Shown one piece after another: positions 9,118-29,614 of a DNA stretch of 64,000 nucleotides. The notes below the pieces were generated by a model. It worked only from the letters and a program-made list of their open reading frames with translations. It searched no databases and was not told where the DNA came from. A program made the position numbers and the translations under genes. Source of the DNA: Nocardioides conyzicola (GTDB lineage: Bacteria > Actinomycetota > Actinomycetes > Propionibacteriales > Nocardioidaceae); NCBI RefSeq assembly GCF_039543825.1, contig NZ_BAABKM010000002.1:962133-1026132 (forward strand). The letters run 5' to 3'. How positions within the stretch are numbered: the stretch's first letter is position 1; the number at the start of each line of letters is the position of its first letter.

Positions 9118-9593
9118 AGATCCCGGCTGTGCTCAGCACCGTCCACGCCACGATCGACGCCGACGGCCTCCTGCGGATCGACCTCGACGGAAAACCACAC
9201 CCCACCCCCGACGAGCGCCGTCGCAGCGACCTGCGATCGGTCCTCGACGAGATCACCGCCAAGATCGGGAACCCGGTCCGGGTCGAGGTCAGCGAACACG
9301 ACGGGACGACGTACTCCGACATCGTCACTCCCCCCGCGGACACACCGGGCAGCACACAACCGACCGGTATGGCGCACGCCGCGCCGCCTGCAGTACCAGC
9401 CGCCGGGCTCACCGGCTCGGGATTCCAGCCAGGAGAGAACGTCGCGGTCGCCTGTGTCCTCTGCATTCAGGCCGCTGGCGCAGATGGCCAAGCTGCCGTG
9501 CACCTCCCGCCTTCACTCCTGACCAGGCCGGGATTCACGATGCTCCTCATCGGGATGACGTCGGCAAACGTTGCGCAGATCGAGCCCACGTGA
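9114..9593 (+). CDS. ICE conserved hypothetical protein between ArdC-like and VirD4 genes
   Basis: A 159-residue protein. The N-terminal half is acidic with a DGLLRIDLDG motif and an ERRRSDL helix. The C-terminal half has a proline/alanine-rich linker and a domain containing CVLC, which could hold a metal or a disulfide. Start and stop both overlap neighbours by four bases (ATGA and GTGA). I do not recognise the family. Tight coupling to the coupling-protein gene suggests a role in substrate recognition or delivery. Confidence 0.6.
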   Translation: MKIPAVLSTVHATIDADGLLRIDLDGKPHPTPDERRRSDLRSVLDEITAKIGNPVRVEVSEHDGTTYSDIVTPPADTPGSTQPTGMAHAAPPAVPAAGLTGSGFQPGENVAVACVLCIQAAGADGQAAVHLPPSLLTRPGFTMLLIGMTSANVAQIEPT

Positions 9594-11320
9594 ACAGCCG
9601 CGGCCAGTCGGTCGACCACGAGCTCACCAACGCCGCTCTGCTCCTCATCTGCGGCGCGCTCGTCCTCGCAATCCTGCTTCGGGCGGCCGGGTCGGTCGCC
9701 GCGTTCGTGACCGGTGCCTCGCAGCCCTCCCGTGGTGCTGCGGCAGGGATGGGTGTGCTCTCCACCCCCAGTCGTCCAGGCACCGCGCTGGGGGTGAGCG
9801 GTCTCAACCCGACCGTCTATTGGGCGACCCTGCTCGTCCTCGTCGCAGCACTGGCAGCGGTCGTCTGGCTCGCCTGGGCGCTCATATCCCGGACCAGGCA
9901 TCGCACCGCTCGGGACCCGGCGCGCATCCACGGAACCGCCGACCGGAGGGACGTCGACACTTCCGCCTCACGCAAGGCGCTCCTACGCCGCGCAAGAACC
10001 CTGCGGCCCTCACTGAATCACCCCGATCCTGCAGACGTCGGATACCTGCTCGGCACCAGCCGCGGTCGCGAGATCTGGGCGTCGGTGGAGGACTCCATCC
10101 TCGTCATCGGCCCACCACGATCAGGCAAGGGACTCCACCTGGTCATCAACGCCATCCTCGACGCTCCCGGCGCCGTCGTCACCACCTCCACAAGACCCGA
10201 CAACATCGCGGCCACCATCGCGGCCCGCCAGGCCCACGGACCGGTCGCGGTCTTCGACCCCCAGCGGCTCACCGGCGGGCTCGCCGCAGTCGAGGGCGTC
10301 GGCGTCCGTTGGTCACCGATCCGCGGATGCGAAGACCCGCTCACCGCGATGATCCGAGCGGCCGGACTCGCTTCCTCAACTGGACTCTCGTCTGGGGGCA
10401 CCGACTCCGGCGGGTTCTGGGAAGGTCGGGCTCGAGCCGTCATCCAGGCGCTCCTCCACGCCGCCGCACTAGACCGACTCCCGACCCGCACCCTGTTCGA
10501 GTGGTCACTCTCAGCGACCGCCGCGATGGACGCCGTCAGCATCCTCGCCATCCATGCCGACGCCGCGCCCGGCTGGGCCGACTCGCTGCGCGGCATGATC
10601 GAGAGCGACCCAAGAACCCGCGACTCCATCTGGATGGCCGTCTCCCAAGCCATGGCCTCACTCGCGGACCCTCAGGTCCTCGACGCCGTCAGCCCTCCAC
10701 CGGGCGAAGAGTTCGACCCGGCCCACTTCCTGAGCGAAAACGGCACCCTCTACCTGCTCGCGACCGGAGCAGGCGCGAGCGCCGCATGGCCTCTCGTTGC
10801 CGCGTTCGTCGAAGACCTCACCGAGGCCGCCCGCCACCTGGCCGCCTCATCTCCTGGCACCCGACTAGACCCACCCCTGTTGCTAGCCCTCGACGAGATC
10901 GGCAACCTCGCGCCACTCCCCTCGCTGCCCGTGCTGATGGCCGAAGGCGGCGGCACCGGCATCACCCCCATGCCGGTCCTGCAATCGCTGTCCCAGGCAA
11001 GGAGCCGCTGGGGCGACCATGCGGCTAGCGCCATCTGGGACGCTTCCATCGTGAAGGTCATCCTCGGGGGCGCATCCGGCTCTAGAGACCTCCAAGACAT
11101 CTCCGTTCTCATCGGCGAACGCGACGAACGGTCGGAGTCCGTCAACATCGGCGACTACGGCTCTCGATCAGTCCAACGGTCCACTCGGCGGGTGCCGATC
11201 ATGCCTCCCGAACGCATCCGCACCTTGCCGTTTGGTACGGGCCTCGTTCTCCTTCGCTCGGCGCCGCCGATCATCGCCAAGCTCAGGCGTTGGTCCGAGC
11301 GGGAGACCATGAAGGACTGA
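9590..11320 (+). CDS. VirD4/TraG-type coupling protein (T4CP)
   Basis: A 576-residue coupling ATPase that would link the DNA-relaxosome to the channel. Two membrane helices lie at about residues 10-32 and 77-100. Walker A (GPPRSGKG) is near 174-181, and the Walker B/TraM-recognition segment ALDEIGNLAPL near 432-442. The GTG at 9590 overlaps the upstream stop. This is the last gene of the transfer block; about 260 bp follow before the defence cluster begins. No relaxase is visible in the window, so its partner presumably lies to the left. Confidence 0.88.
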   Translation: MNSRGQSVDHELTNAALLLICGALVLAILLRAAGSVAAFVTGASQPSRGAAAGMGVLSTPSRPGTALGVSGLNPTVYWATLLVLVAALAAVVWLAWALISRTRHRTARDPARIHGTADRRDVDTSASRKALLRRARTLRPSLNHPDPADVGYLLGTSRGREIWASVEDSILVIGPPRSGKGLHLVINAILDAPGAVVTTSTRPDNIAATIAARQAHGPVAVFDPQRLTGGLAAVEGVGVRWSPIRGCEDPLTAMIRAAGLASSTGLSSGGTDSGGFWEGRARAVIQALLHAAALDRLPTRTLFEWSLSATAAMDAVSILAIHADAAPGWADSLRGMIESDPRTRDSIWMAVSQAMASLADPQVLDAVSPPPGEEFDPAHFLSENGTLYLLATGAGASAAWPLVAAFVEDLTEAARHLAASSPGTRLDPPLLLALDEIGNLAPLPSLPVLMAEGGGTGITPMPVLQSLSQARSRWGDHAASAIWDASIVKVILGGASGSRDLQDISVLIGERDERSESVNIGDYGSRSVQRSTRRVPIMPPERIRTLPFGTGLVLLRSAPPIIAKLRRWSERETMKD

Positions 11321-11579
11321 GTCAACACGGAGGAAAGCGGCCCGCCGCCCCCGCAGAGGCACGTGCACCCCGCCCACTATGACGCGCCTCCGGAGACTCG
11401 TCCCTCACTCGTCCCAAGCAGACCGCACACGCAGGCGCCGCTACTTGTCGATGGCCGAGAACGTGGGGCAGCTTTGACGTGGTCTCTCAAACCCCACCGC
11501 ACCCGCGGGTCCATGCGTGATGATGCTCACGTGCCGCACTTGATGCGCGCGCGTCACGACTTGGAGTGAGGGATGTGCA
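11321..11579 (+). promoter_or_regulatory. Intergenic gap before the Qat operon
   Basis: 259 bp without a convincing gene. A 68-codon frame here has no ribosome site or recognisable product. The region separates the transfer operon from the defence island, so it should hold the qat promoter. A GGAG and a GAGGG lie just before the GTG at 11580. I could not fix a -10 element with confidence. Confidence 0.35.
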
Positions 11580-13583
11580 GTGTGGGCTGACAATGAGGCC
11601 GACTTCGATCTACTCGGGTTCGACTTTCTAGTCGACGGACTCGTCGTCGCGCTCACCGAGCCGCGGCTCCTTCCTCTCACCGTCGGCGTCCTCGGTGACT
11701 GGGGTTCCGGCAAAAGCAGTCTGATGCGCATTGCCGGGCGTGAGGTGGCCGCGCTAACCACCAGCGTCGAAAGCGAGGAGGGTCCGAAACCTAAACCGCG
11801 CTATCTCGTCGTCGAGTTCAGTCCCTGGCAGCACGAGGACTACGACGACGTCAAAACGGCGTTGATGACGTCAATCCTCGATGCACTACACGAAAACGCG
11901 CCGTCCCTGAAAGCCGAAATCAATAGGTTAAGGAAGATCGTCGATGGCTTGAAGAGGTTGGGGCGGCGCAGCGGCCGGGTCGGGGCTTCAGTGGCTGCTG
12001 GTGCGACACCGATCGTCCTCCAACTAACAAGCCCAGACCTGGACCCAGGCGTCGTGGACCTGGCCGCCGCGGGCGCAGGAGCCCTCGCAGGAGAAGTGAA
12101 TGCGGCGCTCGCTGACCCTCCCGCTAGCGCGGGCGAGAACGAGCGCGCAACGGTGTACCCAGAAGACATCAAGACCTTCCGGACCCTATTCGGCGACCTC
12201 GTCGCCGCCGCCCCCTACGAAGCAGTCATCGTTCTCATCGACGATCTTGACCGATGCCTTCCTGAGACCGTGGTGGATACCTTCGAGGCAATCCGATTGT
12301 TCCTTAACACCCCGCAGACGGCGTACGTCCTTGCGCTGAACCAGACAGTCGTCGAATCTGCGATCGATTCACGCTACCCGGACCTGAAGAAGCAAGACGG
12401 TGCCGGTATTGGCCGCGACTACCTCGAAAAGATGCTTCAACTTAAGGTGGCCATCCCTCCGCTCTCGGCGCCAGAAGCCGAGACGTACGTCAACCTGCTC
12501 TTTGCCGAACTCCACTTAGGCGAAGACGAATTCATCAAGGTTCGGGCTGCAGCCGACGCGATTCGCGCGGCAGGTGACCTCACCGTCGCGTTCAACACCG
12601 GCATAGCCGGCGAAGCTCTGGGTAACATCCCGAGCCAGTTAGCCATCGACCTGTCCTGGGCCGCGGAGATAACGCCCATCCTCAGCACGTCTCTTCGAGG
12701 TAACCCGCGCCAACTGAAGCGGTTTCTCAACAACCTGCTCCTTAAGTACCGAAGCGCGGCGCGCCGTAGTATCGACCTGAAGCTGCCGATCCTGGCCAAA
12801 CTCATGGTTCTCGAGGACCAACACCAAACCGACTTTCAAAGGCTTTTCGACTGGGCGATCGCCGCAGGTGGAAGCTGTCCTGAGATCGCTGAAGCCGAAG
12901 ACCGTGCGCGCGGCGTTGCACCAGCGTCCGTCGCACCGGTATCGCCTAGCAAGATTGTAGGGTCCAGGGCTGCGAAGAAGGCACCAGCAATCCCCGCAAA
13001 GACGCCAAGTGCGCCCGAGATGGTGTCTGAGGCCCAGACCTGGGCGGACAAGCCGCACATTGCCGCGTGGCTCCGGGCTGAGCCGCCATTCAAAGGCGTT
13101 GACCTCCGGAAGTACTTCACCTACTCCCGAGATAAGCTCTCGTTCGGAGTTTCGGCGTCACGCCTGACCCCAGTTCTTCAGCAACTCCTCTCCCGGGTTC
13201 AGAACGAGCTCAACGCGAGCCGCCGCAGCTACTACCAGCAGGTCAAGGACCTCGACAGTGCAGAGCAAGCACAGTTCATGGAGGCACTCCTCGAGCGGGT
13301 GCAGCGCGCGCCAGCTGGCACAGCTCTGACCGCGGCCCTCGAGCTGGCAGAACAGATCCCCGACATCGTTCAGCAGGTCTGTGACGTGCTGAAGCGAATC
13401 CCCGTGACGAGCATCCCGCCAGAAACCGCCTCAAAGGCTGTCAATCGTCTCCCCCAGGACAGCCCGGGCGTCCGCAGCCTCTTCGACGTGTGGGCAACCA
13501 GTGACAACAACGCGCTCAGAAGCGTCCTAGAAGCGTCACTAGCCGCGCAAGGAAGGACGGGAACCAGTGGGGACCTCGGCTGA
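11580..13583 (+). CDS. qatA: QatA: KAP-family P-loop NTPase of Qat anti-phage system
   Basis: A 667-residue KAP-type P-loop NTPase, the ATPase of the Qat defence system. Walker A GDWGSGKSS is at about residues 39-47 and Walker B VLIDDLDRC near 219-227. A hydrophobic Ala/Gly-rich stretch around 140-180 is the insertion typical of KAP proteins. The start is GTG 11580. It is followed by QatB with a 17-base overlap, then QatC and QatD in the established order. Identification of the system rests on all four genes together. Confidence 0.9.
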   Translation: MWADNEADFDLLGFDFLVDGLVVALTEPRLLPLTVGVLGDWGSGKSSLMRIAGREVAALTTSVESEEGPKPKPRYLVVEFSPWQHEDYDDVKTALMTSILDALHENAPSLKAEINRLRKIVDGLKRLGRRSGRVGASVAAGATPIVLQLTSPDLDPGVVDLAAAGAGALAGEVNAALADPPASAGENERATVYPEDIKTFRTLFGDLVAAAPYEAVIVLIDDLDRCLPETVVDTFEAIRLFLNTPQTAYVLALNQTVVESAIDSRYPDLKKQDGAGIGRDYLEKMLQLKVAIPPLSAPEAETYVNLLFAELHLGEDEFIKVRAAADAIRAAGDLTVAFNTGIAGEALGNIPSQLAIDLSWAAEITPILSTSLRGNPRQLKRFLNNLLLKYRSAARRSIDLKLPILAKLMVLEDQHQTDFQRLFDWAIAAGGSCPEIAEAEDRARGVAPASVAPVSPSKIVGSRAAKKAPAIPAKTPSAPEMVSEAQTWADKPHIAAWLRAEPPFKGVDLRKYFTYSRDKLSFGVSASRLTPVLQQLLSRVQNELNASRRSYYQQVKDLDSAEQAQFMEALLERVQRAPAGTALTAALELAEQIPDIVQQVCDVLKRIPVTSIPPETASKAVNRLPQDSPGVRSLFDVWATSDNNALRSVLEASLAAQGRTGTSGDLG

Positions 13584-14289
13584 CCGCACCGCCGGCAAAG
13601 GTGGCGACTGGACACCACTCAAGGTGGCAACAACCAGCTACGTGCGCGGGCTCGGCCGCACGGACTCCAGAGGAAGAGCCGAACGAGTCATTGCCCGCCA
13701 CGTCGCGGTTCTCGGCGGCGCTGCAGCGGCCGCATCAACTGGAGTCGCCGGCTCGCGAGGAATCAGCCGGCTCGGTGCACTCCTCTCCGGCTTTGCCACA
13801 GGAGGCGTCCAACAGACTCTCAACACCCTCGGGCTCGTACGGCTCGTCGGCCAAGACCGCTTTCTCGTCCTTGACGAGCTCGTCACCTTCATCGGCGGCA
13901 CTGGCGACGACCTCGACGCCCAGGCTGCCCGCGATGCCAGCTGCGACATCCTCGACGAACTTTTCGGCGATGCGGACTCCTGGCAAGAGCTCGCGGGTGT
14001 CGGAGTGACCGAAGTCGAGCTCAAGCACCTACTCGAACGCTTCCTCGCCTTGTACATCTACAACCGAATGCCAGTCGTTGCCGAGCGACTCAGCCGCCTC
14101 GATCCCGCGTCTCAACGTCAAGCCGACCAGCAGATGCGCGACATCATCGAGAATCTTGTCGGCATCGCGCTCCCTAACGACGTCGGCAATATTGACTGGG
14201 AAGGCGCGCAAGGCAAGACCATCGCGGAGAGTGCGATGAAGTCGGCATACGAAGCAATCAGCGCACTCGATGCAGAGGACCAGGCATGA
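13567..14289 (+). CDS. qatB: QatB: Qat system subunit of unknown activity
   Basis: A 240-residue protein. The basic N-terminus is followed by a Gly/Ala-rich segment (about residues 45-80), similar to QatB proteins, and then an all-helical C-terminal region. QatB has no assigned enzymatic activity. It starts with GTG inside the end of qatA, and its stop overlaps the qatC ATG (ATGA), so translation of the operon is coupled. Identification relies mainly on its place between the KAP ATPase and the QueC-like gene. Confidence 0.85.
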   Translation: MGTSADRTAGKGGDWTPLKVATTSYVRGLGRTDSRGRAERVIARHVAVLGGAAAAASTGVAGSRGISRLGALLSGFATGGVQQTLNTLGLVRLVGQDRFLVLDELVTFIGGTGDDLDAQAARDASCDILDELFGDADSWQELAGVGVTEVELKHLLERFLALYIYNRMPVVAERLSRLDPASQRQADQQMRDIIENLVGIALPNDVGNIDWEGAQGKTIAESAMKSAYEAISALDAEDQA

Positions 14290-15659
14290 CCGAGTACCGC
14301 GTCCGAACCGACCTCTCCGGGCAACTCCCTACCGACCCCCATGTACGAGTCCTCGACTGGGCGCCAGGCCGTCCCGAAGCGACGATTCAACTCGGCAAAC
14401 AAGCTGGCGGCAGGTTTCTCGACGGATGGCGCGCCCCACGCGAAGCCCTCGACCTTCTGCTTCTCGGCGCAACTGCCTACTGCGCGGACAAGACCGCGCT
14501 GCGTACCGAGACCGCCGACGGCTGGACTCGCAGCCTTGAGGTCAGCATTCCGGTCGTCGACCCCAAACGGTGGCAGGACAGTGGTGTCGGGTCCGTTCTC
14601 AACTTCCTGACTGGCGACCGATGGACCGTCAACACATATGAAGAACCGCTATCCCCGATCAAGGGACTGACACGGGTCCCTGAGGACGTGACCCCAGTCG
14701 GCCCCATCGACGCCGTCTGCCTGTTCTCCGGTGGCCTCGACTCCCTCACCGGAGTCATCGACCTTCTTGAGGAGGACCCCGACCGTCGCCTGTGCCTCGT
14801 CTCACACAACGAGGGCGGACAGGCATCGACCGCACAAGAGAAACTCGTCCGCGAACTCAAAGCCCACTATGGGCCAGATCGGTTCATTGCCAAGCAGCTA
14901 TTCCTTCGCCCGGCCCCAGAGAACAACTTGCAACAGCGTCCACTTCCGAGCCCTCGCGAGAACACCACGCGCGCCAGGTCACTCCTGTTCCTCACTACGG
15001 CGCTGGCGCTTGCAGCATCCGTCGGCCCCAGGACGCCCCTCTATATCCCCGAGAACGGGTTCATCGGGATCAACGTCCCGCTGACGCGAGCTAGGAGCGG
15101 GAGCTACAGCACGCGCACGACACATCCGCACTTCATCAAGGGCCTGCAGGAGGCGATCCATCAGTTGGGCGTCTCCAACCCAATCCTTAACCCCTATCGG
15201 TTGAAGACGAAGGGCGAGATCCTTGCTGAAACGCTCAACCCCGACCTCCTCCAGCGGCTGGCACCGTACAGCGTGTCCTGCTCCCATCCTGAGGCCGCAC
15301 GCTACGTGCAGAAGAGACAAGGGAACTGCGGCTATTGCTTCCCGTGCCTCATTCGCCGAGCCTCGATGGCACACGTCGGATGGGACACCGACCCCCAGTC
15401 GAACTACGCCTGGGACGCGCTGACTGGCAAAGAACTCCTTGACCGAAGCACGGCCCGCGCAGCCGATCTACGGGCTGTGATCAACGGCGCATTCAACGAC
15501 CGACCTGACCGCGACATCCTCCGTAACGGCCCTATCCCGGACGGCGAACACGAGGCCTTCATTCGCGTCTGGCGCGAGGGCCTGTCAGAACTGCAAGACT
15601 GGCTTCATAACGCGTCCGACCACACCAAAGCGCGCCTCGAGCGACACGGCCACATCTAA
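14286..15659 (+). CDS. qatC: QatC: QueC-like PP-loop enzyme of Qat system
   Basis: A 457-residue protein with a QueC-like domain (7-cyano-7-deazaguanine synthase fold). The PP-loop motif FSGGLDSLTG is near residues 147-156. A cysteine cluster near 333-356 (one Cys, then CGYCFPC) matches the QueC zinc site. It is about twice the length of housekeeping QueC, with an extra N-terminal domain, as in Qat proteins. No other deazapurine-pathway genes are nearby, so it is not part of queuosine synthesis. The substrate in Qat is not known to me. Confidence 0.9.
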   Translation: MTEYRVRTDLSGQLPTDPHVRVLDWAPGRPEATIQLGKQAGGRFLDGWRAPREALDLLLLGATAYCADKTALRTETADGWTRSLEVSIPVVDPKRWQDSGVGSVLNFLTGDRWTVNTYEEPLSPIKGLTRVPEDVTPVGPIDAVCLFSGGLDSLTGVIDLLEEDPDRRLCLVSHNEGGQASTAQEKLVRELKAHYGPDRFIAKQLFLRPAPENNLQQRPLPSPRENTTRARSLLFLTTALALAASVGPRTPLYIPENGFIGINVPLTRARSGSYSTRTTHPHFIKGLQEAIHQLGVSNPILNPYRLKTKGEILAETLNPDLLQRLAPYSVSCSHPEAARYVQKRQGNCGYCFPCLIRRASMAHVGWDTDPQSNYAWDALTGKELLDRSTARAADLRAVINGAFNDRPDRDILRNGPIPDGEHEAFIRVWREGLSELQDWLHNASDHTKARLERHGHI

Positions 15660-15670
15660 CTAGAACCGGG

Positions 15671-16432
15671 ATGATGAACCCCGCCCACCTCATCGACACC
15701 CACTGCCATATCAGCGCCTACAGCGACCCAGTCGCCATTGTTCGCGCCGCCGAGTCCAACACCTCCATTGTCGCAGTCACCGAGAGCCCCGAAGAGTACC
15801 GACGCCTACGCACCCGGCTCGGACGACGCGATCACATTCAAATTGCTCTCGGCCTCCACCCGCTCAGATCCCACACCTTCACTCCCAACGACCTTGCACG
15901 CTTCTTTCGACTCGTCCCCGAGACCACCTGGATAGGCGAAGTCGGCCTCGACTTCTCGCGACAAGGAGCCGCCACCAAGAAGGAGCAACTCCGGGTCTTC
16001 GACGCCGTCCTCACGGAAGCCCAGCCTGGACAGCACCCACTCACGGTTCATAGCCGTGGCGCAGAGGCTGACACCGTCGGCTTCCTAGCGCAGGCCAAAC
16101 TGTCCGCCGTACTGCATTGGTACACCGGACCGATTGGTCCAATAGACGCTGCGCTCGACGCCGGCCTTTACTTTTCATACAACATCGCCATGGTTCGCTC
16201 AAAGAAGTTCGCAACACTCCTACGAGCGATCCCGCGCGACCGGACCCTCCTCGAGACCGACGGTCCGTACGCGCGCGCAGCGCACGGGCCAGCCCAGCCC
16301 CACCAGATCAACGAGGTCGTTGCGGCTCTGGCCCGCGGCTGGGGCATCAGTCGCTCAGAAGCAACCGACGTGATCATTGGGAACCAGCGCCGGTTCATCG
16401 CCAACGCCTCAACGAGTCCGATTCGCGACTAG
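15671..16432 (+). CDS. qatD: QatD: TatD-like metal-dependent DNase of Qat system
   Basis: A 253-residue TatD-family hydrolase. The metal ligands DTHCH lie near residues 9-13, Glu in EVGLD near 89, and Asp in LETDGPY near 197, so the active site looks intact. It starts 11 bp after qatC with tandem ATG codons and closes the four-gene Qat operon. The amidohydrolase-fold nuclease presumably acts on DNA as the effector or processing part of the system. Confidence 0.9.
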   Translation: MMNPAHLIDTHCHISAYSDPVAIVRAAESNTSIVAVTESPEEYRRLRTRLGRRDHIQIALGLHPLRSHTFTPNDLARFFRLVPETTWIGEVGLDFSRQGAATKKEQLRVFDAVLTEAQPGQHPLTVHSRGAEADTVGFLAQAKLSAVLHWYTGPIGPIDAALDAGLYFSYNIAMVRSKKFATLLRAIPRDRTLLETDGPYARAAHGPAQPHQINEVVAALARGWGISRSEATDVIIGNQRRFIANASTSPIRD

Positions 16433-16584
16433 CGCCTACCTGCAACATGCGACCTTCTAGCGTTGGCGGCGCCAGGTCGTCATAACGCCGCCTGACGGAC
16501 TCACGGGTCTTGCCATCTTGGGCAATCAGATACCCAGGGTTGAGTACATGTAGCGGTGTCGGTGACTCCTGCAAGGATCGTCGT

Positions 16585-17841
16585 GTGTTTCACGCACCGC
16601 TCCCGCGCCTGACCACGATCCTCGCCACAACGTCCAAGTCGATGGTCGACAAACTCAAAAAGCTCGGAGTTCTGCAAGAGGGCTTCCGTCCGCGTCGCCA
16701 TCGCGAGGTGGAACCACCCCGGCTCAACCGCTTCGACTCCATCGCTCGAACCACGCTTGATCGCGTACTGAAAGAGCAAGCCGGTGCGGATCCAGAAGGC
16801 CACTATGAGCGACTGCACGAGCTGATCGAAGACGGTGCCTTCGAGCGGATCCTCTCCGACGCAGACGGCAAGGTCACCGACCTCATCTACACCTCTCTCC
16901 AGCAATCTGCTCCAAAGTTGGTCAGGTCCATTCGCGCCAATGAGAGACGGCTCGAAAAGACGATGCGCGAGGTCTGGGGACAGGCCGACGAGATCTTCCA
17001 GGCCTCCAATTACATCGGTTACGAGCTCGGCGCCGACATCGCGAGGAACAACCCGCACCCAAGTCCAAAGTTGCGGGCACTGCTGGGAGCTCATGGCCGT
17101 GCCCTGCGTACTGGTAGCGAAGTCCGCCAATTGGCCATGTCAGGGTTCCACGACGGCGCCGGCGCTAGGTGGCGCAGCCTGCACGAACTAGCCGTGCTTA
17201 TCGACGTTCTCGCCAAGTCTGACGTCGAGATATCAGAGCGGTACCTCGCATACGCGCGCATCGAGTCCTGGTGGGACGTCAAAACGTTTCAAGAGCACGC
17301 CGACGCACTCGGCCACCACCCGTTCTCAGACGAAGATGTCGATGCAGCGAAGACGGCCGCGAGGGAAGTGACTGAACGTTGGGGACTCGAAATGGACAAG
17401 CCCCACGGGTGGGCGTTCCCGTTGTTCCCCGGCCAGAAGGCTGTCAGGTTCACCGACCTCGAATCACTCGCGGGGTTGTCACATATGCGCCCCTACTACC
17501 GCCTGGGGAACCATCACATCCACTCCGGCCCACGTGCTGGTGAGCTCAACTACGGCGACGTCACACCGCGCGGAACGCCAGCCATCACCGTCGGCGCCAG
17601 CGTATTCGGCGACATCGCCGAGACTTGCCACGGCGCGATGATCAGCGTTCACCACGCAACAGCGAACCTCGTGGTTGCCCACCTGTCCGAACGAGATGGC
17701 AAGCGAGAAGGCATGGGGCTAGACCTGCTCGTCGGTCTGAAGGCCCAAGCACGATTCGTCGAGGACGCGGGTGACCTCTGGAGCAGCGCAGCCGACGAGG
17801 CACGCCTTAGGGGCTGGTTCACCCACAGGCCCAGCGACTAG
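16585..17841 (+). CDS. DUF5677-like protein downstream of Qat
   Basis: A 418-residue protein. The C-terminal two-thirds (about residues 170-390) resembles the DUF5677 family: a helical core with a RSLHELAVL motif, then a GWAFPLFP region and a segment rich in conserved His (GNHHIHSG). The start is uncertain. I take GTG 16585 because AAGGA lies seven bases upstream; the open frame extends to 16510 and an internal ATG is at 16642. It lies about 150 bp after qatD on the same strand. DUF5677 proteins often occur in defence islands, but a link to Qat is inferred. Confidence 0.65.
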   Translation: MFHAPLPRLTTILATTSKSMVDKLKKLGVLQEGFRPRRHREVEPPRLNRFDSIARTTLDRVLKEQAGADPEGHYERLHELIEDGAFERILSDADGKVTDLIYTSLQQSAPKLVRSIRANERRLEKTMREVWGQADEIFQASNYIGYELGADIARNNPHPSPKLRALLGAHGRALRTGSEVRQLAMSGFHDGAGARWRSLHELAVLIDVLAKSDVEISERYLAYARIESWWDVKTFQEHADALGHHPFSDEDVDAAKTAAREVTERWGLEMDKPHGWAFPLFPGQKAVRFTDLESLAGLSHMRPYYRLGNHHIHSGPRAGELNYGDVTPRGTPAITVGASVFGDIAETCHGAMISVHHATANLVVAHLSERDGKREGMGLDLLVGLKAQARFVEDAGDLWSSAADEARLRGWFTHRPSD

Positions 17842-17911
17842 CTGAGTGTCCGGGCGTACCGTCTGGCCGTCGTAATGCATGGGTCTTTTCGCGGCGACTC
17901 ACCCGAGTTCA

Positions 17912-19195
17912 TCATCGCCGGAGCAATTCCTCGGGTCGAGTGAACCCAGCGAGGTCGTCTTCGAAGTCCCTAACTCCGAGGTCGAGCATGAAGACGGTCA
18001 GCCAGTCTCGGATCATCTCGTCGAGATCGTCATCGGACGCCTCAGAGGACATCTGGGGCAGAACTGCCTCGACACTGTGACTGCTGCTGTCTCGTAGGTA
18101 CGGATCCAGATTCACTACCTGGGTGACTGCAAACCCATCTCCTGACTGAAGCCAGGCTCTCCAAGGCGTGGAGATGGCGGGTTCGGCTGCCCCCAGGGCT
18201 TCAGCAACTGCGCCGCAGACATCCCGAATAGCAGTCACATGGGCGAAGAGTGCGCAATAGAGGTCGTCAAAGGCCAACGGCACCAACGTACCCCCAGCGC
18301 TACGCAGACGCGTTCCAAGGAGACAGGACATCAATCTGCCCTCAAGCGCCAAGTGAGCCCCGCTGCTCAGTTCAATTTCGCTAGTGGTCGTAAGGGGTCC
18401 ACCGTCACTGGGCGAGAGCGCGGTGAGCCACGTTGATCGCCGGTCTCTCACCTTCCATCTAATCCTGGGAACATCACCACGCTCGGTGAGCCAGAGGCCG
18501 CGCGGGATGTGCGAACTCTCCAATGCCTCAATAGCTGCATTTCGTGCGGGTGACGTCAGCCATGGTCGACGCGTCACTCGCTCAGGAAGGCGGAGGCCAC
18601 CCATCACGCGGATACCAACATGCAGGGGATCGCCATCGTCGCCCCATAACGGGAGCCTCTGCGGGTCGTGAACGGCGGGAGCGAATCCAACAGTCGAAGC
18701 CCCAGCTGCGTGCCGGTCTCGGTCGACGAGCTCGACGACGCGACGTCGGTCTGCTGGGACCGTCGCACCGGGGACTCTATAGACAACGCGGCCAGAGATC
18801 AGGACCGGATGAGGGAAGGCATCCGCATCGACACGGAGCACGATGATGAGTCGATCTGTATCGGGTATGGCGACCGGAATGGTCTCCGGGAGCACCTCAA
18901 GGTGGCCGCGGAGATGCTCGACGAGTCCGTCAAGATCCGACCGAGGTATTCCAGGCAGACGGCCTTCGCGCGGCGACGAACCGCCGTCCACCCCCACGAG
19001 CACGATGCCGCCATCGGCGTTTGCAAGTCCCGCAACTGCTTCCGCGATGTTCGAACCGGAACGTTTCAGCTTGAGTTCGAGCGACATCGACTCGGCAAGC
19101 AGGTCGGCTGCCTCGGCGTCGGCAACGAATCGCTCCAGGACCGCGAACGTCAACCTCGACGCTTCAACTTCGTACAGGTTGTGGCTAAATATCAC
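17912..19195 (-). CDS. Schlafen/AlbA_2-domain protein
   Basis: A 427-residue protein with an AlbA_2 (Schlafen-type) nucleic-acid-related domain at about residues 30-140: SLELKLKRS, then ANADGGIVLVGVDG, the typical motif pair. The C-terminal part is unassigned and ends with an acidic helical segment. It starts with GTG; TAGAGT eight bases upstream on the minus strand could be a -10 for a nearly leaderless transcript. It stands alone on the minus strand between defence-like genes. Schlafen AlbA_2 proteins include regulators and nucleases; which this is cannot be read from the sequence. Confidence 0.78.
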   Translation of the reverse strand: MIFSHNLYEVEASRLTFAVLERFVADAEAADLLAESMSLELKLKRSGSNIAEAVAGLANADGGIVLVGVDGGSSPREGRLPGIPRSDLDGLVEHLRGHLEVLPETIPVAIPDTDRLIIVLRVDADAFPHPVLISGRVVYRVPGATVPADRRRVVELVDRDRHAAGASTVGFAPAVHDPQRLPLWGDDGDPLHVGIRVMGGLRLPERVTRRPWLTSPARNAAIEALESSHIPRGLWLTERGDVPRIRWKVRDRRSTWLTALSPSDGGPLTTTSEIELSSGAHLALEGRLMSCLLGTRLRSAGGTLVPLAFDDLYCALFAHVTAIRDVCGAVAEALGAAEPAISTPWRAWLQSGDGFAVTQVVNLDPYLRDSSSHSVEAVLPQMSSEASDDDLDEMIRDWLTVFMLDLGVRDFEDDLAGFTRPEELLRR

Positions 19196-19341
19196 ATCCT
19201 GACTCTATTGCGGTCGAACGTGCCCGCTTCGAAGGCGGCTGCCTGAGACACTTGGAGACGATGCCCCATCCGGCCGCGATTGTCGAAGCGTTGTCTCCCT
19301 AGTCGATGTGTCGGAGGCGGATCCAGCGCTGACCGGGCATC

Positions 19342-19809
19342 ATGGCGCCCATGAGCACGACGTCGAGTCCGGGTCTGGTCTCAATCGGCTACGAGGGACG
19401 CACGCTCCAAGATCTCCTCGAGGTCCTCGCCGCCGAGGGGGTCGCGGTCGTCGCCGACGTTCGACTCACACCCCTCTCGCGCAAGCCTGGCCTGTCGAAG
19501 ACGAAGCTCGCAGCGGCCCTCGCCGGGGCCGGCATCGAGTACGTACATCTGCGCTCACTGGGAAACCCGAAGGACAACCGAGCGCCGTTCTGGTCCGGCA
19601 GCCCTGCTGTCGGCGTGCGCCGCTTCCGTCGCATGCTCGCCGACCCTGAGAGGTCAGCATCGATCGACGAGCTCGCGGCGATCGCTAGCGAGCGTCGCGT
19701 CGCGGTGCTCTGCTTCGAGCGGGACCACGACCGGTGTCATCGCCAGGTCGTCCTCGATGCGACGACTGAGCGCCAGGGTGTCAGCTCGGCCCCAGTGGCC
19801 TACGCCTAG
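19342..19809 (+). CDS. DUF488 family protein
   Basis: A 155-residue DUF488 protein. The N-terminal signature SIGYEGRTLQDLLEVL is followed by VADVRLTPLSRKPGLSK. The C-terminal CFERDHDRCHRQVVLD holds the conserved Cys/His motif of the family. An ATG at 19351 is an alternative start. Its stop codon overlaps on the opposite strand with that of the next gene, so the pair is strictly tail to tail. DUF488 has no settled biochemical function; its Cys-x-x-x-x-H-x-x-C-H motif suggests a metal or thiol active site. Confidence 0.88.
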   Translation: MAPMSTTSSPGLVSIGYEGRTLQDLLEVLAAEGVAVVADVRLTPLSRKPGLSKTKLAAALAGAGIEYVHLRSLGNPKDNRAPFWSGSPAVGVRRFRRMLADPERSASIDELAAIASERRVAVLCFERDHDRCHRQVVLDATTERQGVSSAPVAYA

Positions 19810-20639
19810 AACAGACCTTCTTCCGCTAGCGGCGCTTTCTTGGGCCACCAGACTCCGAGCACCATGAACGTGCGCAGATGGAGTTTCTGGTTGCCGAGAT
19901 AGAAGTACGGGTCTCGCTGGTCGCCACACAGCTTGTCAAGAAACTTCTCGCGGATACGACCTGGGATCTCGCTGCGCTCGTAACGGCTCGACCAGTCGCG
20001 GCCGGCCTGGCCGACCTCCCAGTCGATGAGTGTCTGGGCGTGGGTCGGGCAGCCCGAGCTGAGGCATCGGTAGCGGTACTTCACGAGGTATGGCATGGGC
20101 TCGAGTTGGCTTGGTCGATCGTCCCCGAAGAGGTCGACCTCGGCGAGCATCTCGGCCAATGCGATCTGCTCAGCATCGAAGCCTGGGTTCACCTTGACCT
20201 CGACGTCGAGGACCTCGGCAGGTTTCACCAGCGCGAGCGACGGCGCTGGTCCACCGCCGACGTTGGCCTTGAGAATCTCGCATGCGGTCATGTCGCCCAA
20301 GAGATCCCCCAGCTTTGCGCGCCGAGCTGCCCAGAGGCCGTCCCGCCCGGACTCCAGCGACTCGACAACCTCGATCGACTCGAAGTCCGCATGATGACTC
20401 TCAGGTCTGGCATCGACGCCCCGACGTACGTCGACATCGACGATCTGGTACTTCCTGAACCTCGCCGCAGCTGGAAGATCCCTGAACGGAACCGGGAACA
20501 AGCGGATCCACTCCGGCTTCCCCCGGTCGAGGCGTACACCAGCCACGCACACGACCTCAGACCTGTTCCTCTTGCTCAGCTGGGGATACGCCTTCACGGT
20601 AATCAACACGCGGGCGCGGTCCTTGGCGGGCACTTGCAT
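19806..20639 (-). CDS. Unknown protein convergent with DUF488
   Basis: A 277-residue soluble protein. Its N-terminal region (about 8-75) has the pattern CVAG, then WIRLFPVPFRDL, then a KYQIVDVDV strand; this recalls dual-OB-like domains, but weakly. The C-terminal region has CLSSGCPTH, a possible metal site, and a YLGNQKLHLRTFMVLG end. ATG 20639 is supported by TACCGT six bases upstream on the minus strand, the layout of a leaderless transcript. I recall similar proteins next to DUF488 elsewhere, so the two may act together. No function is assigned. Confidence 0.65.
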   Translation of the reverse strand: MQVPAKDRARVLITVKAYPQLSKRNRSEVVCVAGVRLDRGKPEWIRLFPVPFRDLPAAARFRKYQIVDVDVRRGVDARPESHHADFESIEVVESLESGRDGLWAARRAKLGDLLGDMTACEILKANVGGGPAPSLALVKPAEVLDVEVKVNPGFDAEQIALAEMLAEVDLFGDDRPSQLEPMPYLVKYRYRCLSSGCPTHAQTLIDWEVGQAGRDWSSRYERSEIPGRIREKFLDKLCGDQRDPYFYLGNQKLHLRTFMVLGVWWPKKAPLAEEGLF

Positions 20640-20645
20640 CCCGGC

Positions 20646-20651
20646 ACGGTA
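20646..20651 (-). promoter_or_regulatory. Leaderless -10 element of gene ending at 19806
   Basis: On the minus strand TACCGT lies six bases before the ATG at 20639. TANNNT at 6-7 bases from the start codon is the standard actinobacterial -10 for leaderless mRNAs and occurs repeatedly in this window. Confidence 0.55.
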
Positions 20652-20705
20652 CGACTGAGTCAGGCTGTCCCGCAGGCGGTTGCGGTGATCCGCGGGACCG
20701 TGCCC

Positions 20706-24897: not shown

Positions 24898-26226
24898 TCA
24901 AGCGGAGGCGTCAGTGCGACCCGATGACGCCCAGCCGAGCGCTTGCAGCGAGTCGGCGATGTCGTCCTTGGCTCCGGAGACGTAGCGAGCGATGGTGAAC
25001 TCGGCCGACTCATGACCGGCCAGCGTCGCGACCCGCGAGGCCGGCTGATCGAGGTCTTCCAGCTGCCAGGTCACGAAGGTGTGGCGCAGCGAGTGCCACG
25101 TCAGCGCCCACGATCGCTGCTTGCGGGTCCTGCCCTCACCCCAGGGCTTGACCTCGTCGATGTAGGGCCAGTCCGCGGCGAGCGCCGCGGGCTCGAAGAC
25201 GTCGCGATGGAAGTTGCCGCCCAGCAGCCAGGTGCCGCGTTCCGAGGGGAACAGCAGGCCCTTGGGATTGATGCCGGCAGCTCGCTCTGCCTCGATCTCC
25301 TCCAGGCGGAGGTCGATCGCCTCGGCGAGCGGGTATCCGGTTGGCGTGACGCGCGGATAGGTGGTCCACCGGCGCTTGTTTCCCTTCGGTGGCGCGAGGT
25401 GCGGTCCGCCGATCGTCTCGAGCCGCCACAGCACCCGGATCCGGCCGTCCCGGTGGACCGCGGTGTCATCGAGGACGGCGAGCTCACCGCGGCGCACCCC
25501 GGAGTACGCCGCGAGCTCGACCGCCAGCGCCCGCCAGCCCTTGTGTCCCCTGCGCCGACGCGTCGTCATCGATTCGCGGAGCGCGCCCACCTGGTCATGC
25601 GTGGGGCGCCGACTGCGGGGCACGAACTCAACCCGGCCGTCGCTCTGCTCGACAACCGTCACGACGCGAGCGCCGTGCCACCACACCGTCGCGAGGTCGA
25701 TGACCTGATTCTCGAGCAGGTAGTCGCCCTGGCGCAGAGCGCCGACCAACGAGCGGGCCGCCCTGCGGACGTTCCTGCCCTCCGACTCGGTGGGGGCCAG
25801 ATTGACGGCCTGCTGAACGTGGGACCGTCGCAGCTCGAGATGGCGGGTGGACCCGAACACCGGTCTGAAGTAGCGATCCGCGTAGTAGGTCATCGTCTTG
25901 GTGTGCGACTGACCCCAGGATCCGCGGGGCTTGGGGCGATCGGGCGAGAGCCAGTAGTCGATCCCCACCGATGTGCGCTGCTCAGTCCGTGGTGTGGAGC
26001 CGGCGAGGATGAGCTGCTCTCGAGCCAGGGCCTTCGCCCACGCCCGGTCGAAGTACCTGCCTGCCGTGGTGCCCTCCTGGGGGTTGCCCCACACGATCCG
26101 GTAGTACGGCACCGACGCGGTCGGTGCGTAGACCGCCACCAGGCCGACCGGGGTGTCCCACGCCGCCTGGTCGTCGTTCGGGCGCGTTGGGTCCTCGGTC
26201 GGGTCGTAGCTGCGTGGGCGTGCCAT
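24898..26226 (-). CDS. int: Tyrosine-type site-specific integrase
   Basis: A 442-residue tyrosine recombinase that would integrate and excise the element at tRNA-Arg. The catalytic set is visible: Arg245 in SGVRRGEL, a Lys in the PPKGNKRR region, HSLRH with His378 and Arg381, His405 in AGHES, and Tyr415 in ARYVSG. The N-terminal 200 residues hold arm- and core-binding domains. The excisionase-like gene ends three bases upstream on the same strand, so the two form an xis-int operon. The tRNA fragment lies about 500 bp beyond the start of int. Confidence 0.93.
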   Translation of the reverse strand: MARPRSYDPTEDPTRPNDDQAAWDTPVGLVAVYAPTASVPYYRIVWGNPQEGTTAGRYFDRAWAKALAREQLILAGSTPRTEQRTSVGIDYWLSPDRPKPRGSWGQSHTKTMTYYADRYFRPVFGSTRHLELRRSHVQQAVNLAPTESEGRNVRRAARSLVGALRQGDYLLENQVIDLATVWWHGARVVTVVEQSDGRVEFVPRSRRPTHDQVGALRESMTTRRRRGHKGWRALAVELAAYSGVRRGELAVLDDTAVHRDGRIRVLWRLETIGGPHLAPPKGNKRRWTTYPRVTPTGYPLAEAIDLRLEEIEAERAAGINPKGLLFPSERGTWLLGGNFHRDVFEPAALAADWPYIDEVKPWGEGRTRKQRSWALTWHSLRHTFVTWQLEDLDQPASRVATLAGHESAEFTIARYVSGAKDDIADSLQALGWASSGRTDASA

Positions 26227-26592: not shown

Positions 26593-26741
26593 ATCACGCA
26601 GGTGCTCGGACCGTGCCAGCGTGTGCCGGGCCGTCGCGCGCACCCGGCTCGCGTGCCGCGGGGCCGGTCGGCCGTATGGGAACCGTATGTGAACTACCCG
26701 TCCGCCGCGGCTCCTTCGCAGGTCAGCGGCATTTGTGCAGC

Positions 26742-26789
26742 CGCCTCCTAAGCGAAAGGTCGCAAGTTCGACTCTTGCCTGGGGCACCG
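26742..26789 (+). repeat. ICE attachment site: 3' fragment of tRNA-Arg(CCT)
   Basis: The sequence contains the anticodon loop CTCCTAA (anticodon CCT), a five-base variable region, a perfect T-arm (GCAAG, loop TTCGACT, CTTGC) and the acceptor 3' strand CTGGGGC followed by ACC. The 5' side does not fold: only three of five anticodon-stem pairs form and there is no D arm or 5' acceptor strand. This is the usual product of tRNA-targeted integration. The intact tRNA should lie at the other end of the ICE, left of the window. The exact core boundaries are uncertain. Confidence 0.85.
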
Positions 26790-26795
26790 ATGCGG

Positions 26796-26832
26796 AGCGT
26801 CAGACCATCCGGTCGACGACGTGCTCCGCGAT
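26796..26832. repeat. 37-bp direct repeat, proximal copy (lhgO 3'-end duplicate)
   Basis: Identical over 37 bases to 28420-28456. It reproduces the last ten codons of lhgO with the stop codon (minus strand) and a few bases beyond; weaker similarity continues for about ten bases. It starts seven bases after the tRNA fragment. No lhgO coding sequence follows it, so this copy is a duplicate, not a gene. Confidence 0.93.
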
Positions 26833-26890
26833 CGCCATGCTGAGGACACAGCCCTTTACAGATAACCACCGGAAGCGGCAATATTCTGTT

Positions 26891-27577
26891 GTGGCCAACA
26901 GGGGCGACTTCCTGACGACCCACGAGGTGTCCGACCTCCTGGGCGTCGAGGCACGCCAGGTCCGCGTCCTCGCCGAGACGGGATCCATCACCCGCGTCGC
27001 CCGCGGCATCTTCGACCGCACATCGGTCGAGCGCTACCGCGCCGAGCGCGGCTCAGGCCGGACCCGAACCTGGGCAGAGCACACCGCCTGGGGGGCTATC
27101 GCAGAGCTCTCGGGCGCGGCGCCGTTGGGCCTGGGAGACACCCAGAGGTACCGAGTTCGCGCCACCCTGCTCGAGATCACCGACCCGACCGAGCTCGTCA
27201 CCCGGTTGCGCGACCGCGCGACCGTCACGACGTGGTCAGGTCACCGTTCCGTCATCGCGCGCGTCCGCGATGAGCTGGTCATCCCCGGCCGTCGGCGGCT
27301 CGGGCTGGCGGAGGACGACACCGTCGTCGACGGCTACGTCCACGCAGAGCGAATCGCGGACCTAGTGCGTCGCTGCCGGCTGGTCGAGGACACCACCGGA
27401 TCCATCACCCTGCGCCACACCTCAATGGACATCGACTTCGTCGCGTACCTGGCAACGTTGAACCGGACGCTCTCCGCCGTGGACGCCGCCACCTCCCTCG
27501 ACCCGCGCGAACGCGGCGTAGGGGAACAAACCCTCATCGGCCGGTTGGAGCTGTTCCGCGAGAATGCCCGACGGTAA
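26891..27577 (+). CDS. AbiEi-like antitoxin / HTH regulator
   Basis: A 228-residue protein immediately before the nucleotidyltransferase, in the antitoxin position. The N-terminus (about residues 4-50) is a MerR/excisionase-like HTH: FLTTHEVSDLLGVEARQVRV, then VARGIFDRTSVERY. The rest is a mixed domain plausible for toxin binding. GTG 26891 is chosen because the HTH begins right after it; the frame opens earlier through the att region. It overlaps the toxin gene by 14 bases. Typical AbiEi antitoxins have a different winged helix, so the family name is tentative. Confidence 0.65.
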   Translation: MANRGDFLTTHEVSDLLGVEARQVRVLAETGSITRVARGIFDRTSVERYRAERGSGRTRTWAEHTAWGAIAELSGAAPLGLGDTQRYRVRATLLEITDPTELVTRLRDRATVTTWSGHRSVIARVRDELVIPGRRRLGLAEDDTVVDGYVHAERIADLVRRCRLVEDTTGSITLRHTSMDIDFVAYLATLNRTLSAVDAATSLDPRERGVGEQTLIGRLELFRENARR

Positions 27578-28379
27578 GCATCAGGGCGGCGAGCGCCCCA
27601 CCATCGACGTCGCCGCCGCCGTCGGCGGCTGGCCCGACCCGTGGCCGAACGTCGCCGAGATCGCCGCGGTGCTGCCGACCGACAAGTGGACCCTGGTCGG
27701 CGGCCTGATGACCCAGCTGCACTCCATCCACCACGGCATCGGCATCGTGCGTCCGACCAACGATGTCGACATCGTGCTTCACATCGAGACCTCTCGCGGC
27801 GTCGCCTCCGAGACCGCAACTGCACTGCGCTCCCTCGGCTACGACCTGCGCCCGGCCGTCGATCCCCGCGACAACACCGCACACCGCTTCTACCGCGGCA
27901 CGAGCAAGGTCGACCTGGTCACCAACCGTCCTGACGACGACCTGGAGGAGGTGGTCGACGTCGTGGTCGCCGACCACCACGCTCCGAAGGTCACCGAAAC
28001 GCTCGCCGGGCGCGACATGGTGCGCATCGAAGGCGGGACGCAGGCTTTGCGACGCACCATCAACGCGCGTTTGGAGATCGAGCCCGGAACGACCACCACC
28101 GTCTCGGTGCCCGGCCCGTTCGGCGCACTCATCTTGAAGGCCGCTGCGTACAAGACAGACTCGCGCGACCCCGACCGCCACCTGCGCGACGCCGTGGCCC
28201 TGCTTGCCTGCATCGACGACCCGTTCGCCGAGCGGGAGGGATTCACCGGCTCCGACCGCTCTCGGCTCCAGGCCCTGCGTACCCGGCTCACCCCCGACGA
28301 CATCTCGTGGACGACGCTGACCGGTCAGCGCCGTATCGACGCCGAGACGGCCCTGGCGATCCTCACCGACGGCGACTGA
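27564..28379 (+). CDS. AbiEii-type nucleotidyltransferase toxin
   Basis: A 271-residue protein with the DNA-polymerase-beta-like fold of AbiEii/AbiGii toxins. The fold signature LVGGLMTQLH is followed by RPTNDVDIVLHI with the two active-site Asp residues (about residues 66-68). A later AYKTDSRDPDRHLRDAVALL helix resembles the conserved Lys/Arg/Asp segment of the family. Known members modify tRNA or other targets and stop growth until countered by the antitoxin. It is coupled to the upstream gene. The pair lies between the two 37-bp repeats. Confidence 0.82.
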   Translation: MPDGKHQGGERPTIDVAAAVGGWPDPWPNVAEIAAVLPTDKWTLVGGLMTQLHSIHHGIGIVRPTNDVDIVLHIETSRGVASETATALRSLGYDLRPAVDPRDNTAHRFYRGTSKVDLVTNRPDDDLEEVVDVVVADHHAPKVTETLAGRDMVRIEGGTQALRRTINARLEIEPGTTTTVSVPGPFGALILKAAAYKTDSRDPDRHLRDAVALLACIDDPFAEREGFTGSDRSRLQALRTRLTPDDISWTTLTGQRRIDAETALAILTDGD

Positions 28380-28419
28380 CCGGGACCGAGGCGCTCTTCT
28401 ACCCGGGCACCCGACGCCT

Positions 28420-28456
28420 AGCGTCAGACCATCCGGTCGACGACGTGCTCCGCGAT
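28420..28456. repeat. 37-bp direct repeat, distal copy (authentic lhgO 3' end)
   Basis: Second copy of the repeat at 26796-26832. Here it is part of the intact lhgO gene: the TGA stop (minus strand) is at 28424-28426. The 25 bases just before it (CTTC, then GGGCACC and GACGC) loosely resemble the tRNA acceptor end that precedes the first copy, suggesting the repeated block may once have included the tRNA 3' end. Confidence 0.9.
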
Positions 28457-29614
28457 GGCGAGGCCGGACGTCGCCGCGGGCGACGGGGCGTTGCGGACCA
28501 CCGTGATGCCGTCCTCCTGCTGCACGACGAAGTCGTCGACCAGGGAGCCGTCCCGCTCGACGGCCTGTGCCCGGATGCCGAGGCGGGTGCGGGTCACGTC
28601 GGCGACGCCGATCGCGGGGACGTACCGCTGCGCGGCGCGCAGGTAGGCGCGCGTCGAGACGACGCCGCCGAGCTCGGTGAGGCCCGTGCGCCAGTGCTCG
28701 CTGGCAAAGCGCCAGAAGCCGGGCCAGGCGAGGGTGTCGGCCAGGTCGCGAGGCGACAGCGACAGCCGGCTGTAGCCCCGTCGGCTGAGGGCCAGGAAGG
28801 CGTTGGGCCCGACCTCGAGCGACCCGTCGACGCGACGGGTGAAGTGCACCCCGAGGAAGGGGTAGCGGGGGTCCGGGACCGGGTAGATCATGCCGCGGAC
28901 GAGGTCACGCTTCGCGGCATCGACCGCCAGGTACTCCCCGCGGAACGGCACGATCCGAGGAGCCGCCGGACCGCCGACCAGGCCGGCGAGCCGGTCGGAC
29001 TCGAGGCCGCCGCAGACGACGAGTCGGTCCACGGCGTACCGCTCCGAGCCGCACGTCACCTCGATCCGGCCGTCACGCCGGTCCACGGCGGTCACGGTCG
29101 TGGACAGCAGGACCCGGCCACCCGCGTCCGTGATCTCCCGGCCGATCCGCTCGGCGACCGCGACGTAGTCGGTGATGGCGGTGCACGGCGAGTGCAGCGC
29201 CACGAGCCCGGCGGCGTGGGGCTCGATGTCGGTGATCCCGGCGCCGTCGACCCGCTGCAGCGCGGGTACGCCGTTGCGGCGTGCGGTCTGCTCCAGCGCG
29301 TCGAAGCGGCCCAGCTCGGACCGGTCGACGGCCACGACGAGCTTGCCGCACTCGTCGTACGGCAGCGCGTGCTCGGCGCAGTAGTCCTGCAGCAGCGAGC
29401 GCCCGCGCGTGCAGAGCTCGGCCTTGAGGCTGCCGGGTCGGTAGTAGAGGCCGGCGTGGACGACGCCGGAGTTGTGGCCGGTCTGGTGGGCGGCCAGCCG
29501 GTCCTCCTTCTCGATGAGGAGGATGCGTACGCCGGGCCGACGGCGGGTCAGCTCGCGGCCGATGGCCAGACCGAGGATGCCGCCGCCGACGACCCCGATC
29601 GTCTCCTCGGTCAT
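28424..29614 (-). CDS. lhgO: L-2-hydroxyglutarate oxidase
   Basis: A 396-residue FAD-dependent oxidoreductase that converts L-2-hydroxyglutarate to 2-oxoglutarate. The N-terminal dinucleotide-binding motif GVVGGGILGLAIGRELTRR is followed by IEKEDRLAAHQTGHNSGVVH and AGLYYRPGSLKAELC, a strong LhgO signature; the length is typical. It sits 10 bp after the enoyl-reductase-like gene on the same strand. Its last ten codons and stop are duplicated beyond the AbiE module. Confidence 0.9.
   Translation of the reverse strand: MTEETIGVVGGGILGLAIGRELTRRRPGVRILLIEKEDRLAAHQTGHNSGVVHAGLYYRPGSLKAELCTRGRSLLQDYCAEHALPYDECGKLVVAVDRSELGRFDALEQTARRNGVPALQRVDGAGITDIEPHAAGLVALHSPCTAITDYVAVAERIGREITDAGGRVLLSTTVTAVDRRDGRIEVTCGSERYAVDRLVVCGGLESDRLAGLVGGPAAPRIVPFRGEYLAVDAAKRDLVRGMIYPVPDPRYPFLGVHFTRRVDGSLEVGPNAFLALSRRGYSRLSLSPRDLADTLAWPGFWRFASEHWRTGLTELGGVVSTRAYLRAAQRYVPAIGVADVTRTRLGIRAQAVERDGSLVDDFVVQQEDGITVVRNAPSPAATSGLAIAEHVVDRMV

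Follow-up and report, generated by a model that had tools for sequence, protein, structure and literature searches.

Introduction

The closest described counterpart of the locus reported here is the cis-mobilizable element (CIME), for which we follow the definition in PMC5704250. Like a CIME, the module described below appears to keep att-like ends, is devoid of integration and transfer genes and adjoins an ICE at the same locus; it differs in consisting of one operon and in having a 37-bp core in lhgO, whereas the core of the ICE is 52 bp of tRNA-Arg. The module is not a textbook CIME, because the core of the ICE is not common to it. In Streptococcus suis, according to the account in PMC11062541, AbiE stabilises an ICE, and the AbiEi component binds a palindrome in promoter DNA. 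The pair in our locus resembles this type IV toxin-antitoxin (TA) system in its putative AbiEi-like regulator, its putative AbiEii-like nucleotidyltransferase (NTase), its overlapping operon and a palindrome at the operon start, but it represents a divergent actinobacterial family below the Pfam cut-offs and lies outside the ICE. For actinomycetes, PMC3218068 describes ICEs with att sites at tRNA 3' ends and mentions remnants and tandem arrays; att sites at tRNA 3' ends recur here, whereas the module carries no replication, transfer or integrase genes. A literature search at the level of titles and abstract openings returned no published equivalent of the module that we recognised as the same.

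Results

An AbiE-type operon with an lhgO 3' end on either side

The window, by which we mean the whole 64,000-nt stretch of DNA analysed, contains the following features at and around the module.

24898..26226, minus strand: tyrosine integrase of the ICE, 442 aa (PF00589 at 28.8 bits, E 1.2e-6; cut-off 27.1)
26737..26788, plus strand: att copy of the ICE, a 52-bp 3' fragment of tRNA-Arg(CCT) identical to G000:C2:882831-882882
26796..26832, minus strand: displaced (host-side) lhgO 3' end, att-like core, exact repeat, placed by comparison with an empty site (G264)
26833..26845, minus strand: lhgO-like arm past the core, matching the alleles of L005, L295 and G264 and not the resident lhgO
26855..26889, plus strand: putative operon promoter/operator with a TTTACAG motif, start codon immediately after
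26891..27577, plus strand: AbiEi-like antitoxin/regulator (PF13338 at 23.5 bits, just below the cut-off of 25; PADLOC AbiEi, E 1e-4)
27564..28379, plus strand: AbiEii-like NTase, predicted toxin, assigned through a relative (P0084) and a GG...RPTNDVDIV motif
28390..28419, no strand: arm weakly resembling the spacer and the tRNA-Arg 3' end
28420..28456, minus strand: other copy of the 37-bp core, at the 3' end of the resident lhgO, exact repeat
28424..29614, minus strand: lhgO, FAD-dependent oxidoreductase (PF01266, E 5.6e-57), stop codon at 28424-28426

The two cores form a direct repeat that is identical at 37 of 37 bp, as the initial annotation stated. The agreement is far beyond chance: base composition predicts 2e-11 exact pairs of this length, and no other exact direct repeat of at least 22 bp occurs in the window. 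The annotation's reading of the distal copy as the lhgO 3' end also holds, since that copy contains the stop codon (the gene name itself is the label given there), as does its description of an antitoxin/nucleotidyltransferase pair as the sole content between the repeats: two genes lie inside, neither with a match to a recombinase family in Pfam or PADLOC. The promoter motif begins 23 bp past one core, and the AbiEii stop is 40 bp from the other.

For the NTase, no convincing Pfam match was obtained with the 27564-28379 product itself; its relative P0084, which is 69% identical, carries PF08843, and we take the GG...RPTNDVDIV motif to mark an AbiEii-like nucleotidyltransferase. A PDB profile search gave no match, and the AF2 model of the NTase (pLDDT 54) was too poor for use. 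The palindrome ACAGATA-TATTCTGT occupies 26858-26889 at the start of the operon. The operon is probably autoregulated and retained through addiction or phage defence.

Repeats with exact 22-bp seeds 300-8000 bp apart were found in the window and in L008, L042, L048, L054, L178, L180, L185, L190 and L193 among 110 loci (2.2 Mb), a set that is not a random sample because most of its members were chosen for lhgO (80) or AbiE (23). Repeats of at least 30 bp in these loci are confined to the window, L008, L180, L190 and L193. The apparent 45-bp repeat beside AbiE in L180 reflects two similar genes; in L190 and L193 the pattern of the repeats points to genes of similar sequence or to repetition within a gene.

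The neighbouring ICE

The 106-kb neighbour of the module is an ICE in tRNA-Arg(CCT). An intact tRNA-Arg(CCT) lies at G000:C2:882831, 106 kb upstream of its 52-bp 3' copy. Ten ICE proteins from this interval were scanned and include a TrwC relaxase, a coupling protein of the TraG/TrwB type, an NlpC/P60 protein and a TrbL-like protein at 25.2 bits, just under its cut-off of 25.9. Seven bases separate the end of the tRNA fragment (26788) from the proximal 37-bp copy. The 52-bp core is absent at the distal end of the module, where its last few bases alone match, and joint excision of the module with this ICE is therefore not predicted.

The ICE integrase scores barely above the PF00589 cut-off, and a profile seeded from it found, among the loci searched, only itself and the overlapping own locus L001. 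The cargo of the ICE includes a KAP P-loop NTPase and a QueC-like protein (11580-13583 and 14286-15659), possibly a defence island.

The empty site and the arms beside the repeat

One relative (G264) has neither the ICE nor the module and shows a single base between the end of lhgO and tRNA-Arg(CCT), with 77-81% identity to the genome of the window (G000) across about 10 kb on each flank of the junction. Since lhgO abuts the tRNA in this empty site, the tRNA-side 37-bp copy sits where the lhgO end lay ancestrally. That the proximal copy duplicates the present lhgO end, as earlier proposed, is less likely than that it represents the former lhgO end, which stayed next to the tRNA. The broader claim, that a gene 3' end has been re-supplied and displaced around a module stacked against an ICE att site, is supported, with the 52-bp tRNA-Arg copy adjoining the displaced end.

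At another locus with shared synteny (L004), lhgO and tRNA-Arg(CCT) lie 9.4 kb apart (11200-20653), with formate-dehydrogenase-like genes, read by eye, between them; set against the one base in G264, this distance means that the junction has varied more than once. No tRNA-Arg was found near lhgO in any of the other 28 non-own loci in L278-L306, which have 1.5-kb flanks. Elsewhere, in L376 (G046:C1:115600-116700) and L377 (G008:C15:224000-224900), tRNA-Arg(CCT) is followed by a tandem array whose units measure about 69 or 81 bp. Each unit closes with the tRNA 3' end, and the units resemble stacked att scars with nothing between.

Immediately past the core, the displaced copy continues with the codons S-M-A, as in L005, L295 and G264, whereas the resident lhgO has G-L-A. 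The best allele match of the displaced arm has p 0.0003 against 56 unique alleles and p 0.00025-0.004 against a larger allele set at five arm lengths, while its likeness to the resident arm is at chance level (p 0.26). Statistically, the displaced copy carries a second lhgO lineage. Replacement of lhgO through long-range recombination was considered and set aside, as affinity along the gene shows no clear change. Before the distal repeat, the resemblance of the arm to the tRNA end is suggestive (anchored p 0.006-0.08 over five lengths; local p 0.077). A composite lhgO/tRNA-Arg junction, as had been proposed, was perhaps involved, given the abutting genes of G264.

Integrases, carriers and further displaced ends

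A home-made integrase profile (20 domains) that recovered the integrases of L184, L195 and the window was applied together with a presumed serine-recombinase motif; with this profile, whose sensitivity is unproven, no integrase was found near lhgO in any of 109 non-own loci (80 with flanks of up to 10 kb, 29 with 1.5 kb). Among the PF00589 matches listed, G000 has only three, and none adjoining lhgO was recognised. Common use of the lhgO 3' end by integrases is thus supported neither by the home-made profile nor by the PF00589 matches listed.

Across 215 genomes of the genus, with four candidates scored per genome, no further displaced lhgO end was recognised among the matches listed. G508:C35 proved to be a short match within long open frames, G179 an lhgO paralogue, and L341, the sole lhgO-like viral match, a chance match. 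None of the viral contigs carried the promoter string or a confirmed NTase; in the phage collection the NTase is represented by a single record, the unverified faecal scaffold MT835669.1.

The same operon in other genomes

Close relatives of the NTase occur in 23 of 391 genomes of the order (own genome included) and in 9 of 394 of the class, five of which were already in the first set. The TTTACAG motif stands at the operon start in 13 of 25 AbiE loci, and most of the close ones add the ACAGATA/TATTCTGT palindrome. Neighbouring genes are shared only by L178 and L179 among the 12 loci whose flanks were inspected. Bracketing repeats at E<1e-4 were found in two of 29 AbiE loci, the window (1.5e-16) and L177 (5.5e-5); in this test the operon edge was estimated in a few loci, and flanks were shorter for L342-L345. 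The L177 repeat (26 nt, 92%), which by eye ends a gene for a liv-type ATPase, is of a kind that the random control can also yield, and an empty site for L177 was not found among 20 genomes of the genus. A gene-end repeat is accordingly no constant trait of the AbiE family, being absent at this threshold from the other 27 loci.

In Aeromicrobium (L178), the operon replaces about 100 bp of intergenic DNA of the empty site L198 with no duplication; at the equivalent site of L199 and L202 the intergenic DNA is shorter still, likewise with no duplication. Entry of the operon there looks like illegitimate recombination, as far as the compared sites allow it to be read. With unrelated flanks in 27 of 29 AbiE loci (E<1e-4), the kind of case that the initial annotation had itself named as speaking against a link, and no duplication at L178, the suggestion that the repeat is tied to movement of the AbiE module is not supported.

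L184 has tRNA-Ala, an integrase and a close AbiE pair in a row (6986-10041), its NTase match ending near residue 200. Fragments of tRNA 3' ends near the operon in L175, L176 and L084 rest on reading by eye, because Rfam gave no match in these loci. Distant NTase relatives, all below 60% identity, are present on 38 PLSDB records of actinobacterial plasmids, mostly from Rhodococcus.

Parallels at putative RHH-type TA modules

In Saccharomonospora (L008), two lhgO ends (110 nt, 94% alike) enclose a ribbon-helix-helix (RHH) protein (PF01402), which we interpret as an antitoxin, together with its partner. The layout is similarly compact, and decayed versions of the arrangement occur in L009 and L339. 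The partner has no family match above cut-off, and the TA label for the pair is for that reason putative; the partner is present in 29 of 200 genomes of the family, own genome included. The lhgO 3' end is unlike between the resident and displaced copies in L008 (11041-12040), L009 and L339, and insertion therefore probably altered the C-terminus of the enzyme in Saccharomonospora.

Bracketing repeats at E<1e-4 surround five of 30 RHH-TA modules: L346 (the same as L008), L369 (46 nt, 98%), L360 (53 nt, 91%), L374 (30 nt, 90%) and L355 (19 nt, 100%). L366 has a weaker repeat (18 nt, E 0.003) with one copy within an intact tRNA-Gly, and on comparison with this tRNA-Gly the repeats of L369 and L374 look like tRNA-Gly 3' ends, L374 having three pieces; the repeat of L360 is, by eye, a tRNA 3' half. 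In these repeat loci Rfam matched two tRNAs, both intact and both in L366, and otherwise only 17 nt of L374, weakly, as tmRNA.

Taken together, bracketing repeats at E<1e-4 amount to 7 of 59 module loci (29 AbiE, 30 RHH-TA), compared with 8 of the 288 random placements made in lhgO loci as a control (Fisher p 0.006). At identities of at least 90% the counts are 7 of 59 against 2 of 288 (p 8e-5), and at E<1e-6 they are 5 of 59 against 3 of 288 (p 0.005), or 3 of 57 against 3 of 288 (p 0.06) once the two prompting cases are removed. Enrichment of bracketing repeats around TA modules is likely, as a post hoc result.

Discussion

The exact identity of the bracketing repeats, the two-gene content between them, the att pair of the adjacent ICE and the empty site provide a framework for asking how an AbiE-type operon came to lie at the end of lhgO. 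We lean towards reading the segment 26796-28456 as a CIME-like remnant or minimal element that lacks an integrase, is bracketed by att sites and is stacked against the ICE. An element with its own lhgO 3' end would have recombined site-specifically with the chromosomal lhgO end abutting tRNA-Arg(CCT), passing its 3' end to the resident lhgO and pushing the original end beside the tRNA. Loss of an integrase would then have left the AbiE-type TA operon as the remaining content, and integration of the ICE, also in the adjacent tRNA-Arg, would have produced the stacked order, a sequence of events that we infer from the arrangement. The small size of the module may be original or may be an end state of decay. 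To judge from the flanking bases, the pattern of the arms fits attL and attR with an element-borne lhgO end better than it fits plain target duplication, which is disfavoured because the displaced copy continues as an lhgO allele unlike the resident one. The conjugation genes of the ICE, the parallels around RHH-type TA pairs with their likely enrichment of bracketing repeats, and the AbiE pair next to an integrase and tRNA-Ala in L184 speak for this reading. Against it stand the failure to find an integrase for the lhgO end in the 109 non-own loci, the scarcity of bracketing repeats among AbiE loci, the drop of the enrichment to p 0.06 without the prompting cases and the weakness of the tRNA-like arm. 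It is odd under this reading, and counts against it, that a foreign att arm should differ directly beside 37 bp that are exact; this exact stretch, covering variable C-terminal codons and post-stop bases, would also fit a recent local duplication.

One rival account is that an AbiE fragment was captured at a staggered double-strand break, fill-in and end joining yielding 37 bp of duplicated target. The exactness of the repeat and the lack of a recombinase speak for this route, and L178 shows an operon that seemingly entered by illegitimate recombination; that event, however, was a replacement with no duplication, repeats at several parallel loci correspond to the 3' ends of tRNAs or genes, and past the 37 bp the displaced arm is similar to lhgO alleles other than the resident one (p 0.0003-0.004), so that we regard break capture as unlikely. 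If a small circle or a plasmid bore the AbiE operon together with roughly 50 bp of lhgO end, its integration through a single homologous crossover would yield the identical two-allele arrangement; a 37-bp exact core could suffice for rare RecA-type recombination, and distant relatives of the NTase are found on plasmids. This crossover would nevertheless leave unexplained the repeats at other TA modules that resemble tRNA 3' ends, the usual integrase targets, and we consider it very unlikely. Least probable of all is a currently mobile mini-satellite, a reading in line with the small satellite of the initial annotation, in which the integrase of a co-resident element would act in trans on an att site and its TA operon. 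The tight packing here and in L008 would be apt for this reading, but it sits poorly with the failure to find a helper integrase, the rarity of the repeat among AbiE relatives and the single displaced lhgO end recognised in the genus among the matches listed.

Returning to the att-bracketed remnant or minimal element, the locus suggests that what remains between att scars can in the end be a TA operon alone. The wider proposition that actinomycetes carry operon-sized mobile units, each consisting solely of a TA operon and an att site derived from a gene or tRNA 3' end, served by integrases in trans and retained through the toxin, appears quite unlikely at this stage. The empty, full and decayed sites now on offer allow one to ask whether addiction preserves TA operons in such places or whether they still move, and, if mobile, units of this kind would be among the smallest integrative elements.
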